Positions 1,612 to 14,768 of a stretch of DNA of 64,000 nt are shown here, piece by piece. The notes under the pieces are model-generated. The model made no database searches and was not told where the DNA came from. It saw nothing but the letters and a program-made list of their open reading frames with translations. Numbering within the stretch: position 1 is the first letter of the stretch; each line of letters opens with the position of its first letter. Origin of the DNA: Plantactinospora mayteni (lineage in GTDB: Bacteria; Actinomycetota; Actinomycetes; Mycobacteriales; Micromonosporaceae); assembly GCF_016862935.1 (NCBI RefSeq), contig NZ_BONX01000058.1, positions 1 to 64,000 on the forward strand, read 5' to 3'. The translations under genes and the position numbers were made by a program.

Positions 1612-3579
1612 TCAGCGACGTTCCGGAGCGTCCGTGGGATTCAGCGCCGCGACGATCGCCTCGGCGGTACGCCGGCCCACCCCTGGCACCTCGGCGATCT
1701 CGTCGACCGTGGCCGCCGACAGCCGCTTGACCGAGCCGAAGTGCCGCAGCAGTGCCTTGCGGCGTACCTCGCCGAGGCCGGGGACCTGGTCGAGGCCGGA
1801 GACGGTCATCCGCTTGGAGCGGCGTTGCCGGTGGAACGTGATGGCGAACCGGTGCGCCTCGTCCCGGACCCGTTGCAGCAGATAGAGCCCTTCGGAGGTG
1901 CGCGGCAGGATCACCGGGAACTCGTCGCCGGGCAGCCACACCTCCTCCAGCCGCTTGGCCAGCCCGCAGAGCGCGATGTCGTCGATGCCCAGCTCGGCCA
2001 GCACCGCCGCGGCTGCGGCGACCTGGGGTTGCCCACCGTCCACCACCACGAGCTGCGGCGGGTACGCGAACTTGCGCGGTCGCCCGGTCGTCGGGTCGAT
2101 GCCGGGCCGGTCCGGGTCGGAGGCCATCTCGTCGCCGATCTCCCCGGTCTCGCCCCGGGCCTGGAGGTAGCGGGCGAACCGCCGGCGCAGCACTTCGGAG
2201 AGTGCCGACAGGTCGTCGGTGGCTCCGCGCACCACGAACCGCCGGTATTCGCTCTTGCGCGGCAGGCCGTCCTCGAAGACGACCATGCTGGCCACCACGT
2301 CGGTGCCCTGGATCTGCGACACGTCGTAGCACTCGATCCGCAGCGGCGCGGTACGCAGCCCGAGCGCCTCGGTGATCTCGTCCAGCGCCTCACTGCGGGT
2401 GGTCAGGTCACCGGCCCGGCGCAGCTTGTGCCGGGTCAGCGCCTCGGCGGCGTTGCGCGCCACGGTCTCCAGCAGCGCCTTCTTGTCACCGCGCTGCGGC
2501 ACCCGCAGGGCCACCTTGCTGCCCCGATGCGCCGACAGCCACTCGGCCAGCGCGTCGACGTCGGCCGGCAGCGCCGGCACCAGCAGCTCGCGGGGCACGT
2601 CCCCCTCCCCCTCTGCCCCGCCGTAGACCTGGGAGCAGAAGTGGTGCACGAGGTCTCCGGTGGTCAGGTCCTCGACCTTCTCCACCACCCAGCCGCGCTG
2701 GCCGCGTACCCGGCCGTCCCGGACGTGGAAGACCTGGACCGCCGCCTCCAGCGGATCCTCGGCGAACGCCACCACGTCGGCGTCGGTGCCGTCGCCGAAC
2801 ACCACGGTCTGCTTCTCCATCGCCCGGCGCAGCGCCACGATGTCGTCGCGCAGCCGGGCGGCCCGCTCGAACTCCAGCGCCTCGCTGGCCTCGCCCATCT
2901 CGCGTTCGAGCCGGCGGACCATCTGGTCGGTACGGCCGGCCATGAAGTCGCAGAACTCGTCGACGATCCGGCGGTGCTCGTCGGCCGAGGCCCGCCCGAC
3001 GCACGGTGCCGAGCACTTGCCGATGTCGCCGAGCAGGCACGGCCGGCCGATCTGCGCCTGCCGCCGGAACACCCCGGACGAGCAGGTCCGGGCCGGGAAG
3101 ACCCGGAGCAGCAGGTCCAGCGTCTCGCGGATCGCCCAGGCGTGCGAGTACGGCCCGAAGTAGCGCACCCCCTTGCGCTTGGCGCCCCGCATCACCTGGA
3201 GCCGGGGGAACTCCTCGTCCAGCGTCACCGCGAGATAGGGGTACGACTTGTCGTCCCGGTAGCGCACGTTGAACCGGGGGTCGTACTGCTTGATCCAGTT
3301 GTATTCGAGCTGGAGCGCCTCGACCTCGGTGCCGACGGTGACCCAGTCCACGCTGCCGGCGGTGGTGACCATCTGCTGGGTGCGCTGGTGCAGATTCCAC
3401 AGGTCGCCGAAGTAGGAATTGAGGCGGCTGCGCAGGCTCTTGGCCTTGCCGACATAGATCACCCGGCCGCTGGGATCCCAGAATCGGTATACGCCGGGCA
3501 GGTCGGGAATCGTGCCCGGTGCCGGGCGATAGGTAGCGGGGTCGGGCACGCCGACAAGCCTAGACCGAGCCTGGGACAT
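1612..3579 (-). CDS. uvrC: UvrC, excinuclease ABC subunit C
   Basis: Dual-incision nuclease of nucleotide excision repair; it acts on the UvrB-DNA complex and cuts both sides of the lesion. The N-terminal GIY-YIG domain is visible (LPGVYRF ... [14 protein letters not shown]), followed by a Cys-rich stretch ([13 protein letters not shown]), a UVR helix pair that binds UvrB ([18 protein letters not shown]), the RNase H-like domain ([20 protein letters not shown]) and C-terminal helix-hairpin-helix repeats ([28 protein letters not shown]). I start at ATG 3579; a GTG at 3549 ([12 protein letters not shown]) is also plausible. The longer upstream frame overlaps the Rieske gene and is unlikely. uvrA lies 0.6 kb away on the same strand. 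Confidence 0.96.
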
Positions 3580-3617
3580 CGCCTGGCGCGGCGACGGACA
3601 GTCGGCCGCGCCAGGCG

Positions 3618-4221: not shown

Positions 4222-7200
4222 TCAGGACTTCCCGGTACGCCGGCTCTTCGCCGGCCCGGTCTTCGCGGCCGTGGTCTTGGCCGTGGCATCCGCCCGGGCG
4301 GCGCCGCCCTTCACCGTACCGTCGCCGGCCCGGCCGCTGCCCGCCTTCGCGGTGCCGTCACCGGCCTTGACCGCGCCGCCGTTTGCCCTGGTCGCGCCGC
4401 TGTTGACCGGCGCGCTCCCGGTGGCCTTCGCGGTGCCGCCGCTGGCCTTCGCGGTGCTGGCCCTCGCGGTGCCGTTGGCCTTGGCGGTGCCGTTGGCCTT
4501 GGCGGCCCGGGTGGTCGCCGCGCTCGCTCCCCGGGCCAGGCCGGTCAGCCCGAGCACCGGCCGGAGGAACTGCCCGGTGTGACTCTCCGGCACCTCCGCC
4601 AGCTCTTCCGGGGTACCGGCGGCCAGCACCGTGCCGCCCCGGTGCCCGCCCTCCGGGCCCATGTCGACCAGCCAGTCGGCCGTCTTGATCACATCGAGGT
4701 TGTGCTCGATGACGATCACCGTGTTGCCCTTGTCGACCAGGCTGTCCAGCACCCCGAGCAGCTTGCGGATGTCCTCGAAGTGCAGCCCGGTGGTCGGCTC
4801 GTCGAGCACGTACACCGTGCGTCCGGTGGAGCGCTTCTGCAACTCGGAGGCGAGCTTGACCCGCTGCGCCTCTCCACCGGAGAGGGTCGGCGCCGGCTGG
4901 CCGAGCCGGACATAGCCGAGGCCCACGTCGACCAGGGTCTTCAGGTGCCGGTGGATGGCCGGGATCGCCGAGAAGAACTCGGCCGCCTCCTCGATCGGCA
5001 TCTCCAGGATGTCGGAGACCGTCCGTCCCTTGTAGTGCACCTCCAGGGTCTCCCGGTTGTAGCGGGCACCCTTGCAGACCTCGCACGGCACGTAGACGTC
5101 CGGCAGGAAGTTCATCTCGATCTTGATCGTGCCGTCGCCGCTGCACGCCTCGCACCGGCCGCCCTTGACGTTGAACGAGAACCGGCCCGGCCCGTACCCC
5201 CGGACCTTCGCCTCGGTGGTCTCGGCGAAGAGCTTGCGGACGTGGTCCCAGACCCCGGTGTACGTCGCCGGGTTGGACCTCGGGGTACGCCCGATCGGCG
5301 ACTGGTCGACCCCGACCACCTTGTCGACGTTCTCCAGTCCGGTGATCCGGGTGTGCCGGCCGGGCACCAGCCGGGCCCCGTTGATCTGGTTGGCGAGTAC
5401 GGCGTAGAGGATGTCGTTGACCAGGGTCGACTTGCCCGAGCCGCTGACCCCGGTGACCGCGATGAACTGGCCGAGCGGGAACGACACGGTCAGGTTCCGC
5501 AGGTTGTGCTCCCGTGCCCCCTGCACCACCAGTTCCCGGCCCGGCGTCTGCGGCCGGCGCCCCTTCGGCGTCGGGATCGACCTGCGCCCGGAGAGGTACG
5601 CCCCGGTCACCGACTCGGTGTTGGCCAGCAGCTCCGGCACCGAACCGCTGTGCACGATCTTGCCGCCGTGCTCGCCGGCCCCCGGCCCGATGTCGACGAT
5701 CCAGTCGGCCGTCCGGATGGTGTCCTCGTCGTGCTCGACCACGATCAGCGTGTTGCCCAGCCCCTTGAGCCGGACCAGCGTCTCGATCAGCCGGTGGTTG
5801 TCCCGCTGGTGCAGCCCGATCGACGGCTCGTCCAGCACGTAGAGCACGCCGACCAGGCCGGAGCCGATCTGGGTGGCGAGCCGGATCCGCTGCGCCTCGC
5901 CGCCGGAGAGCGTGCCGGCCGGCCGGTCCAGCGACAGGTAGTCGAGGCCGACGTCGACCAGGAAGCGCAGCCGGGCGTTGATCTCCTTGAGCACCCGCTC
6001 GGCGATCATCTTCTGCCGGTCGGTGAGGGTCATCCCGGCGAGCAGTTCCGCGCACTCACCGACCGAGAGCGCGCAGACCTCGGCGATGTTCCGGCCGCCG
6101 AGGGTGACCGCCAGCACCTCGGGCTTGAGCCGGCTGCCCCGGCAGACCGGGCAGGGCACGTCCCGCATGTAGCCCTCGTACTTGTCGCGGGACCAGTCCG
6201 ACTCGGTGTCGTTGTGCCGCCGCTCGACCCACTGCACCGCGCCCTCGAAGCCGGTGTAGTAGGAGCGCTCGCGGCCGTACTTGTTGCGGTAGCGCACGTG
6301 CACCTGGTCGCCCGAGCCGTGCAGGATGGTCTTCTGCGCCCGGGACGAGAGCGCCCGCCACGGGGTGTCGAGGTCGAAGTGCTCGGCCTCGCCCAGCGCC
6401 TGCAACAGGCGGAGGAAATATTCCTGGGTCTGCCCGCCGGACCACGGCTGGACGGCACCCTCACGCAGCGTCCGCTCCCCGTCCGGGATGATCAGGTCGG
6501 CGTCGACCTCCTTCTTGGTGCCCAGTCCGGTGCACTCGGGGCAGGCGCCGTACGGGGCGTTGAAGGAGAAGACCCGGGGCTCCAGGTCCTCGATCGCCAG
6601 CGGGTGGTCGTTGGGGCAGGCCAGGTGCTCGGAGTAGCGCCGCTCCCGCTGCGGGTCGTCCTCGGGCAGGTCGACGAAGTCGAGCAGTACCAGCCCGCCG
6701 GAGAGGCCGAGCGTGGCCTCGACCGAGTCGGTGAGCCGCTGCTTGGCGCTCGCCTTGACGGTGAGCCGGTCCACCACCACCTCAATGGTGTGCTTCTCCT
6801 GCTTCTTCAGCTTGGGCGGCTCGGTCAGCGGATAGACCACCCCGTCGACCCGGGCCCGGGCGTAGCCCTTGGCCTGGAGTTCGGCGAAGAGGTCGACGTA
6901 TTCCCCCTTGCGGCCTCGGATCACCGGGGCCAGCACCATGAACCGGGTGCCCTCGTCCATCGCCAGCACCCGGTCGACGATCTGCTGCGGGCTCTGCCTG
7001 GAGATCTTCTCGCCGCAGATCGGGCAGTGCGGCTCGCCGACGCGGGCGAAGAGCAGCCGGAGATAGTCGTAGACCTCGGTGATGGTGCCGACGGTGGAGC
7101 GCGGGTTGCGCGAGGTGGACTTCTGGTCGATCGAGACGGCCGGGCTCAGCCCCTCGATGAAGTCGACGTCCGGCTTGTCCATCTGGCCGAGGAACTGCCG

Positions 7201-12324: not shown

Positions 12325-12765
12325 GTGGACGTCCTGGTCATCAACGCCGACCTCGGCCCGCTCCACCGGGTCAGTCTCCGGCACGCCGTACGGATGCTGG
12401 TCCGGCGGGTCGCCGAGGTGCACGAGGCCGTACCGGACCGGCTGATCGGGGTCTACCCGGTGCCGACGGTCGTCCGACTGGTCAAGTACGTCGTCACCAG
12501 GTGGCGCTTCAGCTCGGGACCGGCCTGGTCCCGGTCGGGTGTGCTCACCCGGGACGGGCGCCGGTGCGGCTACTGCGGCGGTCACGCGAGCACCGTCGAC
12601 CACATCCTGCCCCGCTCCCGCGGTGGCCGGAACACCTGGACCAACACCGTCGCCTCCTGCGACGGCTGCAATCAGCGCAAGGCAGACCGCACCCCCGCCG
12701 AGGCGGGCATGGTGCTGCGGTCGGCGGCGACGGTACCCGGTTGGGCCGCGCTGACCCGGCGCTGA
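12325..12765 (+). CDS. HNH endonuclease domain protein
   Basis: A 146-residue protein starting at GTG with RBS agaaggggg 7 nt upstream. The C-terminal half has the HNH nuclease core: CGYCGG (first Cys pair), the catalytic stretch VDHILPRSRGGRNTWTNTVASC with His in DHILP and Asn in RNTWTN, then CDGCNQRKADRTPAEAG. The N-terminal half (MDVLVINADLGPLHRVSLR) is typical of small actinobacterial HNH proteins. It sits inside the tRNA array, between Gly(GCC) and Gln(CTG), with a hairpin directly after its stop codon. It may be a homing-type or mobilising nuclease for the array, or a defence nuclease; neither role is shown. Confidence 0.85.
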   Translation: MDVLVINADLGPLHRVSLRHAVRMLVRRVAEVHEAVPDRLIGVYPVPTVVRLVKYVVTRWRFSSGPAWSRSGVLTRDGRRCGYCGGHASTVDHILPRSRGGRNTWTNTVASCDGCNQRKADRTPAEAGMVLRSAATVPGWAALTRR

Positions 12766-13535: not shown

Positions 13536-14282
13536 ATGGTGCCGAATCCCACCGAACTGCACAAGGTCAATGCGCTGGTGCAGGGCTTCAAGCCGCAGGC
13601 CAAGCGGGAACTCACCGACGCACACCGGCGTACCCAGAAGGCACCCCCGCTCTCCGGCATCTCCCGGACCTACCAGCCGTTCGCCGACGACATCCGCGAG
13701 CAGTTGCCGCCGGAGTCGACCCGGGTGCAGTACACCGTCCAGGAGGTCCTCGACGAGGTCGCCGCCACCATGGGCCGGCTCTTCGACCTCCAGTTCCTCC
13801 AGGACACTGGCAACGCCACCGCCAAGGCCGACGTGGTGGTCGACGGCCGGACGCTGGTCCGGGAGGCACCGGTCACCTACCTGCTCTTCCTGGAGAAGCA
13901 GCTCGTCGACTTGCGTACCTTCGTCGACGGACTGGCCACCCTGGACGCGGCGGAGCGGTGGGAGTTCGACCCCGACCGCGGCTGCTACGCGAGTACGCCG
14001 AGCCAGACGCAGAAGATGCGCAAGGTGCACCGCAACCACGTGAAGGCCGAGGCGACCGAGAAGCACCCGGCGCAGGTCGAGGTCTACACCGAGGACGTAC
14101 CGGTGGGCACCTGGACCACGGTGAAGCTCTCCGGCGCCCTGCCGGCCGAGCGGGTCAAGGTGTTGCGCGGCCGGGTCGACAAGCTGCTGGAGGCGGTGAA
14201 GGTGGCCCGCGAGGAGGCGAACAGCAGCACCGTCGAGGACGACACCGTCGGCGACGAGGTGTTCGGCTACCTGTTCGGGTAG
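13536..14282 (+). CDS. 248-residue protein of unknown function inside the tRNA array
   Basis: Starts at ATG with RBS gaaagga 6 nt upstream. The protein is soluble, rich in charged residues, with no signal peptide or membrane segment. I see no motif I can assign. Notable stretches are the basic N-terminus (ELHKVNALVQGFKPQAKREL), SRTYQPFADDIREQLPPE, a basic patch around residues 160-180 (SQTQKMRKVHRNHVKAEATEKH) that could bind nucleic acid, and an acidic tail EDDTVGDEVFGYLFG. It lies between the compressed Pro tRNA and the permuted genes, followed by a hairpin. An RNA-binding or tRNA-related role is a guess from context and charge only. Confidence 0.75.
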   Translation: MVPNPTELHKVNALVQGFKPQAKRELTDAHRRTQKAPPLSGISRTYQPFADDIREQLPPESTRVQYTVQEVLDEVAATMGRLFDLQFLQDTGNATAKADVVVDGRTLVREAPVTYLLFLEKQLVDLRTFVDGLATLDAAERWEFDPDRGCYASTPSQTQKMRKVHRNHVKAEATEKHPAQVEVYTEDVPVGTWTTVKLSGALPAERVKVLRGRVDKLLEAVKVAREEANSSTVEDDTVGDEVFGYLFG

Positions 14283-14291
14283 TCTCCCAGG

Positions 14292-14314
14292 CACCCCCTG
14301 TGGAGCGGGGGGTG
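14292..14314 (+). terminator. hairpin after the 248-aa gene
   Basis: caccccc/gggggtg, a 7-bp stem with a 9-nt loop, 9 bp after the stop codon. No U-tract. Confidence 0.5.
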
Positions 14315-14359
14315 GCGCGAGATGCGTCGAGACTGAGGCTGACCTGTCAGACTCATCAA

Positions 14360-14444
14360 CGGTGACGGTTCCAGTGGAGGTTCGAATCCTCCCCTTGGCA
14401 CTTCGGGCCGAGGTAGCCCAACCGGCAGAGGCAGACCGGCACCG
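14360..14444 (+). tRNA. candidate permuted tRNA A, Leu-like (3' half before 5' half)
   Basis: The upstream half (14366-14400) holds anticodon-stem strand cggtt, variable ccagt, T arm ggagg-ttcgaat-cctcc, acceptor ccttggc and discriminator A. After 6 nt (cttcgg) the downstream half (14407-14438) holds acceptor gccgagg, ta, D arm gcc...ggc and stem strand gaccg. gccgagg pairs all seven bases of ccttggc, and gaccg pairs all five of cggtt. Flanks accg/cggt extend the helix. D arm and variable region match the short-arm Leu genes. The anticodon depends on how ends would be joined and is not determined. Confidence 0.7.
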
Positions 14445-14502
14445 AGCAGGCTGAGACTATCGCTCCAGGCTCAGCACCCCCACCGATCGCCAGATCTACC
14501 GA

Positions 14503-14602
14503 CCACGACAATCTCGACGGGATGCTGGTTCGAGTCCAGTCTGCCGCTCTCCCTGCGGCGGTCGCTTAATGGCAAAGCACGTCGAATGCAGGCTGATCGT
14601 GG
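14503..14602 (+). tRNA. candidate permuted tRNA B, Gly-like (3' half before 5' half)
   Basis: The upstream half (14515-14548) holds anticodon-stem strand cgacg, variable ggat, T arm gctgg-ttcgagt-ccagt, acceptor ctgccgc and discriminator U. After 6 nt (ctccct) the downstream half (14555-14584) holds acceptor gcggcgg, tc, D arm gctt...aagc and strand cgtcg. Acceptor 7/7 and anticodon stem 5/5 pair, plus an extra A-U. The outer flanks ccacga (14503-14508) and tcgtgg (14597-14602) also pair. GCGG acceptor start with U73 is the Gly pattern shared with the two intact Gly genes. Confidence 0.7.
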
Positions 14603-14641
14603 AGCTTAAACGCCGCTGGCGTGCGAACGGGTGGAACTTCA

Positions 14642-14674
14642 GGGCCCCCGGGGTCGGGCATACCCCGGGGGTCC
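14642..14674 (+). other. 13-bp GC hairpin before the 8/4 tRNA
   Basis: Left arm 14642-14654 (gggcccccggggt) pairs with 14662-14674 around loop cgggcat, with one G.U. It stands 11 bp before tRNA-Ser(TGA). It may stop transcription, pause it or separate the permuted genes from the following tRNA. Confidence 0.6.
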
Positions 14675-14685
14675 GCCAAACTCTC

Positions 14686-14768
14686 GGAAGGCGCCGCCCG
14701 GTGGCGGGCGACCGGTCTTGAAAACCGGGGTGTCGGCAACGGCAGGGGTTCGACTCCTCCGCTTTCCT
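14686..14768 (+). tRNA. tRNA-Ser-like (TGA) with 8/4 acceptor-T architecture (allo-tRNA type)
   Basis: The acceptor is 8 bp (ggaaggcg/cgctttcc) and the T stem 4 bp (gggg/cctc), total 12. The D arm is Sec-like: 5-bp stem ccgcc/ggcgg with tetraloop cggt. Anticodon stem ccggt/accgg, loop ctTGAaa, then a variable arm tgtc/ggca. tRNAs of 8/4 type are known from some bacteria and phages, mostly as Ser species. Discriminator is U rather than G. Confidence 0.8.

Follow-up and report, generated by a model that had tools for sequence, protein, structure and literature searches.

Two permuted tRNA-like modules in a structured RNA beside the DUF7873 gene of Plantactinospora mayteni, its relatives, and phages

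Introduction

In permuted two-piece tmRNA, the acceptor end of the tRNA-like part is split by a removable linker, and the tRNA-like domain has no D stem. Permuted tRNA genes of algae and archaea carry the 3' half upstream of the 5' half, with a short linker in between; for Thermofilum pendens, two permuted tRNAs with encoded CCA are described in the available part of one report (PMC3978253). The Y RNA YrlA tethers Rsr, the Ro60 orthologue, to PNPase: Rsr is held by a stem, whereas PNPase is bound by a tRNA-like domain on which DusA and TruB introduce modifications, according to the accessible text of PMC8394870; an excerpt of another paper suggests YrlA as a possible competitive inhibitor of an anticodon nuclease (PMC7790460). 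GOLLD and ROOL are large structured RNAs of phages and prophages that are often located near tRNA islands, as stated in the accessible portion of PMC12286853.

We analyzed a stretch of 64,000 nucleotides from P. mayteni (contig NZ_BONX01000058.1, positions 1 to 64,000; hereafter the window), in which an earlier note had described two independent, adjacent permuted tRNA genes, A and B. The independence of the two does not hold, because both are modules of one structured noncoding RNA of ~380 nt (about 14292 to 14673). Like the permuted tRNA genes of algae and archaea, this RNA has 3' halves upstream of 5' halves and short linkers; however, it lacks a junction from which an anticodon loop could be restored, its outer ends are embedded in a larger RNA, and its hosts are bacteria and phages. 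With two-piece tmRNA it shares an acceptor end interrupted by a linker, and weak beta_tmRNA matches are found in four phage loci, but it differs in having two such ends and in retaining the D stems, which are paired in 100% (A) and 96.9% (B) of alignment cells. It is smaller than GOLLD and ROOL and is linked to DUF7873; neither of these two RNAs is among the nine Rfam matches up to an E value of 10 at 14270 to 14700, nor was either found in the phage loci. The closest likeness is to YrlA, whose Rfam consensus alignment displays the same permuted series of T arm, short-looped acceptor hairpin, and D arm, carried by a stem. Unlike YrlA, the window RNA has two modules in ~380 nt together with a conserved core and a long arm, the linkers of many relatives carry CCA, the partner gene is DUF7873 rather than TROVE, and the scores stay below the Rfam cutoff. 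We propose, with good confidence, that the whole is an RNA with two YrlA-type tRNA mimics that is linked to DUF7873 and forms a ribonucleoprotein. No paper on such an RNA was found among the titles and abstract starts of the permuted tRNA, tRNA array, and phage tRNA-like literature, in a collection with few subscription papers and preprints.

Results

Architecture of the RNA

In the alignment, the unit is ordered as 5' hairpin, CTGA-rich strand, module A, core, module B, 3' strand, and 3' hairpin (Table 1), and the core between A and B is highly conserved. Judged from the aligned sequences, a long conserved arm is capped by module B. A second arm is probably capped by module A; the base of this module finds its partner strand in the core, and the pairing is resolved in part only. 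The RNA is perhaps located on one transcript with the DUF7873 gene. A pattern search found neither promoter nor terminator patterns, and the folding energy of the single window RNA is unremarkable and uninformative (MFE z score of -0.97). A permuted group I intron in the flanks was rejected, as no intron family occurs among the Rfam matches up to an E value of 10, and the matches to SECIS_2 (other strand) and twister-sister, both with E values of about 0.03, look like chance.

Table 1. Coordinates of the RNA, its two modules, and the adjacent gene in the window
Feature	Position	Strand	Evidence
DUF7873 (PF25283) protein gene, 248 aa; proposed protein partner	13536..14282	+	Pfam E 5e-99
5' hairpin, ~10 nt past DUF7873 stop codon	14292..14314	+	Sequence; window MFE; similar position in many relatives
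5' strand of module A base (CTGA repeats)	14329..14355	+	Covarying pair 14354-14453; alignment
Module A, permuted tRNA-like domain	14365..14438	+	Covariation; permuted-module finder; YrlA match, 22.8 bits
A T arm	14376-14392		
A acceptor	14393-14399 with 14407-14413		
A base 73 and linker	14400-14406		
A D arm	14416-14432		
Conserved A-B core	14447..14506	+	Alignment; covariation
Long arm, 5' strands within core	14480-14484, 14488-14493, 14501-14504	+	
Module B, 3' half (base 73 included)	14515-14548	+	Sequence; permuted-module finder; covariation
B anticodon-like strand of 3' half, CGACG	14515-14519		
B T arm	14524-14540		
B acceptor strand CTGCCGC	14541-14547		
B base 73 = U	14548		
B linker between tRNA-like 3' and 5' ends	14549-14554	+	Sequence; permuted-module finder
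Module B, 5' half	14555-14584	+	Sequence; finder; covariation; YrlA match, 30.8 bits over 14502-14606
B acceptor strand GCGGCGG	14555-14561		
B T8 (D arm next)	14562		
B anticodon-like strand of 5' half, CGTCG	14580-14584		
Long arm, 3' strands (within 14602..14635)	14602-14605, 14616-14621, 14630-14634	+	Covariation
3' hairpin, probable RNA end, without T run	14643..14673	+	RNAalifold pairs

Pairing and conservation of the modules

At 14515 to 14584, the tRNA 3' half precedes the 5' half and is separated from it by 6 nt (14549 to 14554). The pairing claimed for B proved exact in both sequence and coordinates: all seven acceptor positions pair, one of them as G·U, and so do all five positions of the anticodon-like stem. 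Neither ARAGORN nor Rfam at its cutoffs reported a tRNA between 13461 and 14686. A permuted-module finder, which was designed after A and B were known, was applied to both strands of the whole 64 kb, where A and B were its sole matches, and to 200 first-order Markov simulations of the array (4.1 kb), where it matched nothing. Among the 19 window tRNAs of Rfam's list, acceptors matched at 7/7 positions in 8 of 342 ordered foreign pairs and in none of the 17 pairs of list neighbors.

The query 14290 to 14690 found matches in 32 of 101 genomes at an E value of ≤0.001 (own genome counted), although the weakest matches cover little sequence and possibly represent just arms of ordinary tRNAs; three Streptomyces plasmids are matched as well. 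Removal of near-duplicates reduced 126 loci with a profile match to 92, and 65 of these were aligned, with 12 close kin of retained rows and 15 divergent copies making up the 27 left out. The RNAalifold consensus of the 65 rows has 64 pairs, 52 of them with two-sided changes. In the structure tested on these rows, 97.1% of 2,969 cells are paired, and two-sided changes occur in 38 of its 46 pairs; the percentage describes two-module copies, because those lacking module A are among the 15 divergent ones left out, and the tested structure is somewhat favored by having been derived from the RNAalifold consensus of the same sequences. As controls, structures slid by 1 to 3 columns pair in 42 to 52% of cells, and none of 500 shuffles reaches the observed level.

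The acceptor helices are paired in 99.1% (B) and 98.9% (A) of cells over the 65 rows, and all seven pairs of each have two-sided changes. The same is true of every pair in the three long-arm helices (14501-14504/14602-14605, 14488-14493/14616-14621, and 14480-14484/14630-14634), with 87.6 to 95.5% of cells paired. In a structure-free covariation analysis (Neff of 35), the eight highest-ranking column pairs all fall in the T stems and acceptors of the two modules or in the long arm; the ninth, 14548-14658, misfits the structure. The weakest and least supported helix is the 5-bp anticodon-like stem of B, which is omitted by RNAalifold; even at 14518-14582, where its covariation is strongest, just 57% of rows have a canonical pair. 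By this comparison of sequences, the fold is conserved across actinobacteria and phages; the two halves of B do pair with each other, as had been claimed, and their permuted tRNA fold is genuine and maintained by selection.

These data bear directly on the idea that A and B are remnants of two different tRNA genes that pair by accident. The location within a tRNA array would suit such an origin, as would the false positives that the YrlA model gives across two adjacent intact tRNAs at three other loci (L149 to L151); however, the two-sided changes, covariation, and conservation contradict it, and the RNA is also found at loci without tRNA arrays. We consider accidental pairing of remnants extremely improbable.

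Comparison with permuted tRNA genes

The tRNA core positions T8, G10, A14, G19, T55, C56, and C61 are invariant in 65 of 65 rows in both modules. Module B is present in all 92 distinct copies, whereas no module A was found in 14; three of the latter do have it (L097, L098, and L124) and L065 was left uncounted, which leaves 10 of the 92 copies in which we read A as genuinely missing or substituted while the core persists. Module A is absent from L018, L025, L029, L092, L100, and L115. In a group of related copies (L102, L105, L106, and L119), a conserved-looking hairpin without a T loop takes the place of module A. The glycine pattern ascribed to B is not conserved, with U, G, and A at base 73 in 36, 21, and 8 of the 65 rows. 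The strict tRNA core, the variable base 73, the absence or replacement of A in some copies, and the continuation of the outer ends into the long-arm helices together indicate that selection maintains an L-shaped tRNA mimic and not a decoding tRNA.

If A and B were instead two genuine permuted tRNA genes, they would mature in the manner of those in red algae and Thermofilum: RNase P and RNase Z would excise the linkers, and the outer ends would be cut and joined at the anticodon loop to give translating tRNAs (Gly for B). The permuted order, the 7/7 acceptor pairing, and the full tRNA core agree with this, as does the CCA at positions 74 to 76 in many relatives. The outer "anticodon" ends, however, extend into conserved, covarying helices, and therefore they form no 7-nt anticodon loop when joined; no bulge-helix-bulge junction was seen by eye. 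The variability of base 73, the loss or replacement of A in copies that keep the core, and the inclusion of both modules in one DUF7873-linked RNA also speak against translating tRNAs. We regard functional permuted tRNA genes as very unlikely here, and the reading of B as a permuted glycine tRNA gene was abandoned in favor of a tRNA mimic.

Positions 74 to 76 are the site where tRNA genes encode their CCA tail. Among modules with perfect acceptors, CCA lies directly 3' of base 73, at exactly these positions, in 40 of 89 distinct viral, 8 of 16 phage, 36 of 90 family, and 17 of 110 named-genome modules; shifted by one base, it occurs in 1 of 88, 0 of 16, 0 of 86, and 3 of 108, respectively. In the window itself, CCA is encoded by neither module and by just 2 of the 19 intact tRNAs. 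The exact placement of CCA in the relatives makes processing of the linker plausible, and enzymes of the RNase P/Z type that normally mature tRNAs may excise it.

Linkage to the DUF7873 gene

A match to the RNA profile is located within 900 nt downstream of DUF7873 in 120 of 121 loci, which consist of the window, 23 loci found by RNA similarity, and 97 found by DUF7873 (some places included twice) and represent part of the family's DUF7873 matches. The exception, L112, has only a partial DUF7873, and no RNA was found there. In most loci, the match starts <100 nt from the gene. Among 396 genomes of the phylum, DUF7873 is present in 7, and the full-length core-plus-B model scores >75 bits in the same 7; all other matches to the model, in a search whose filters lose weak matches, score <47 bits and mostly cover the tRNA-like part only. 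In named genomes, the RNA lies beside DUF7873 in 79 of 80 loci, taken from at least 457 confirmed, with hosts that include Streptomyces, Nocardia, Actinomadura, Kitasatospora, Micromonospora, Plantactinospora, Kutzneria, and Glycomyces. In viral contigs, a near-full-length match is found beside DUF7873 in 74 of 80 loci kept of 235 confirmed, a few of which are near-identical; one of the other six is cut by the contig end. Overall, DUF7873 was detected in 73 of 50,697 phage records and in 109 of 300 genomes sampled from the window's family.

We also considered 12 phage loci, including those of Arthrobacter, Gordonia, Rhodococcus, Rhizobium, Klebsiella, Vibrio, and Pseudanabaena phages. Permuted modules with 7/7 acceptors lie within 750 nt past DUF7873 in 11 of them (two modules in 5, one in 6), and the Microcoleus phage has none, whereas the sequence profile matches 7 and misses 5; the modules therefore retain their pairing despite sequence divergence. 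Beside the RNA, a search for further protein families conserved across groups found none, and the largest clusters of neighboring genes resemble spurious frames over the RNA region or synteny within a single clade. At the level of sequence, the comparison across these sets establishes a tight linkage between the RNA and DUF7873.

Such proximity, with the RNA beginning ~10 nt past the stop codon, would also be expected of a cis-acting 3' untranslated region (UTR) element whose tRNA-like hairpins recruit RNase P and set or sense the stability of the DUF7873 mRNA, thereby regulating only its own gene. The conserved structure, however, is larger and deeper than a processing site requires, and two viral loci depart from this arrangement: L286 carries the RNA ~1.2 kb downstream of DUF7873 but on the other strand, and L308 has it just upstream of the gene. 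An element confined to own-gene regulation thus appears improbable to us compared with a linked RNA that acts as a partner of the protein.

Two further loci stand apart. In L161, from a contig filed as a Chloroflexi metagenome-assembled genome, DUF7873 is present and the RNA was not found by two models. In the Microcoleus phage (L129), a HEARO RNA (3396 to 3605) follows DUF7873, and more tRNA-like pieces occur at 5180 to 5360.

Relation to YrlA and Ro60

At a lax threshold, YrlA (RF02553) is the best Rfam match of module B (14502 to 14606; E value of 7e-5), and it also matches over A (14348 to 14462; E value of 0.015); its permuted module of T arm, acceptor hairpin, and D arm is present in both. 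The curated YrlA cutoff of 69 bits is reached by neither window module, nor in 19 relatives or 10 phage loci. Matches at an E value of ≤0.05 occur in 10 of the 19 relatives (28.9 to 43.1 bits; that of L014 at the far end of the element), and 5 of the 10 phage loci have a match in the RNA region (29.3 to 37.9 bits). Phage locus L122 has a second match of 25.7 bits, over a tmRNA and a tRNA. Each of the five best TROVE loci in related genomes has one YrlA-like match (34.9 to 45 bits), which precedes the TROVE match on the same strand; these YrlA-like matches also fall below the cutoff, and therefore sub-threshold scores look usual in this family.

In 300 genomes of the family, both DUF7873 and TROVE are found in 46, DUF7873 only in 63, TROVE only in 38, and neither in 153. 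The co-occurrence exceeds expectation (Fisher P value of 5e-5), with most TROVE matches covering just part of the profile, and the excess may be caused by shared lineages. For an ordinary YrlA acting with the Ro60 orthologue Rsr, this co-occurrence and the identical module topology would be fitting, and the scores of 30.8 and 22.8 bits are slightly under those of the matches near TROVE. However, the P. mayteni genome (99.97% complete) has no TROVE match in a search that did detect TROVE in a control genome, 63 of the 109 DUF7873-positive family genomes have none either, and two modules, a large core, and the linkage to DUF7873 set this RNA apart. Ro60 was accordingly rejected as the partner, and we judge that an ordinary YrlA-Rsr system is unlikely, the more probable partner of the YrlA-type mimics being DUF7873.

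The five TROVE loci (L134 to L138), four of which also hold intact tRNAs, present a parallel pair of protein and tRNA mimic. Two YrlA-like permuted modules are also found in L146 (1246 to 1570) and in L147, from genomes without a DUF7873 match; ACCA follows the acceptor strand of the first module in L146, and ARAGORN reported no tRNA in either stretch.

Discussion

The AlphaFold2 model of DUF7873 (pLDDT of 87.9, pTM of 0.74) had no match to solved structures at an E value of ≤0.001; the best Foldseek match in the PDB has an E value of 5e-3 and a TM score of 0.14. A similar fold, at a level that is not confident (TM scores of 0.45/0.60, E value of 0.028), is seen in BFVD entry A0A7M1RW91, an uncharacterized protein of the uncultured phage cr118_1. 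DUF7873 corresponded to no PADLOC family, and comparison with PHROGs and with PDB sequences gave only E values of ≥0.03 and ≥0.76, respectively. No literature naming DUF7873 was found in a search that left most subscription papers and preprints outside its scope.

By analogy with Ro60/Rsr on YrlA, DUF7873 would bind the conserved core and form a ribonucleoprotein. The two L-shaped mimics could then recruit tRNA-handling machinery such as RNase P, RNase Z or trimming nucleases, the CCA enzyme, and perhaps PNPase, and the recruited enzymes may open the linkers, leaving tRNA-like acceptor ends. Phages frequently carry the RNA-DUF7873 pair, and tRNA genes often surround it in them, as they do in the window; given this, its likeliest use might be to tether enzymes that bind or cut tRNA or to act as a decoy for them, which we put forward only tentatively. 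A comparably speculative proposal is that of a phage-spread ribonucleoprotein class in which the linkers are excised, so that two real CCA ends without anticodons would arise and could be charged or serve as decoys. If true, the ribonucleoprotein could trap tRNA-cutting defense enzymes, or feed or block charging. Apart from that proposal, the linkage provides DUF7873 with a clear candidate RNA partner, Y RNA-like tRNA mimicry is extended to systems without a detected Ro60, and the encoded CCA makes bacterial processing of permuted tRNA ends directly testable.

A tRNA array as a constant setting of the RNA was rejected, as any tRNA within 4 kb occurs in 20 of the 80 named-genome loci and three or more occur in only 1 of 80. 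In the viral loci, any tRNA is found within 3 kb in 40 of 80, and three or more are found in 23 of 80. The locus of Gordonia phage Phendrix (L122, 1069 to 1597) includes an Rfam tmRNA match that is absent from the feature table of the record. Within the tRNA array of the window, an HNH endonuclease reading frame is located at 12325 to 12765; in the available part of PMC9569102, tRNA clusters of mycobacteria are reported to be accompanied by an HNH gene resembling it.
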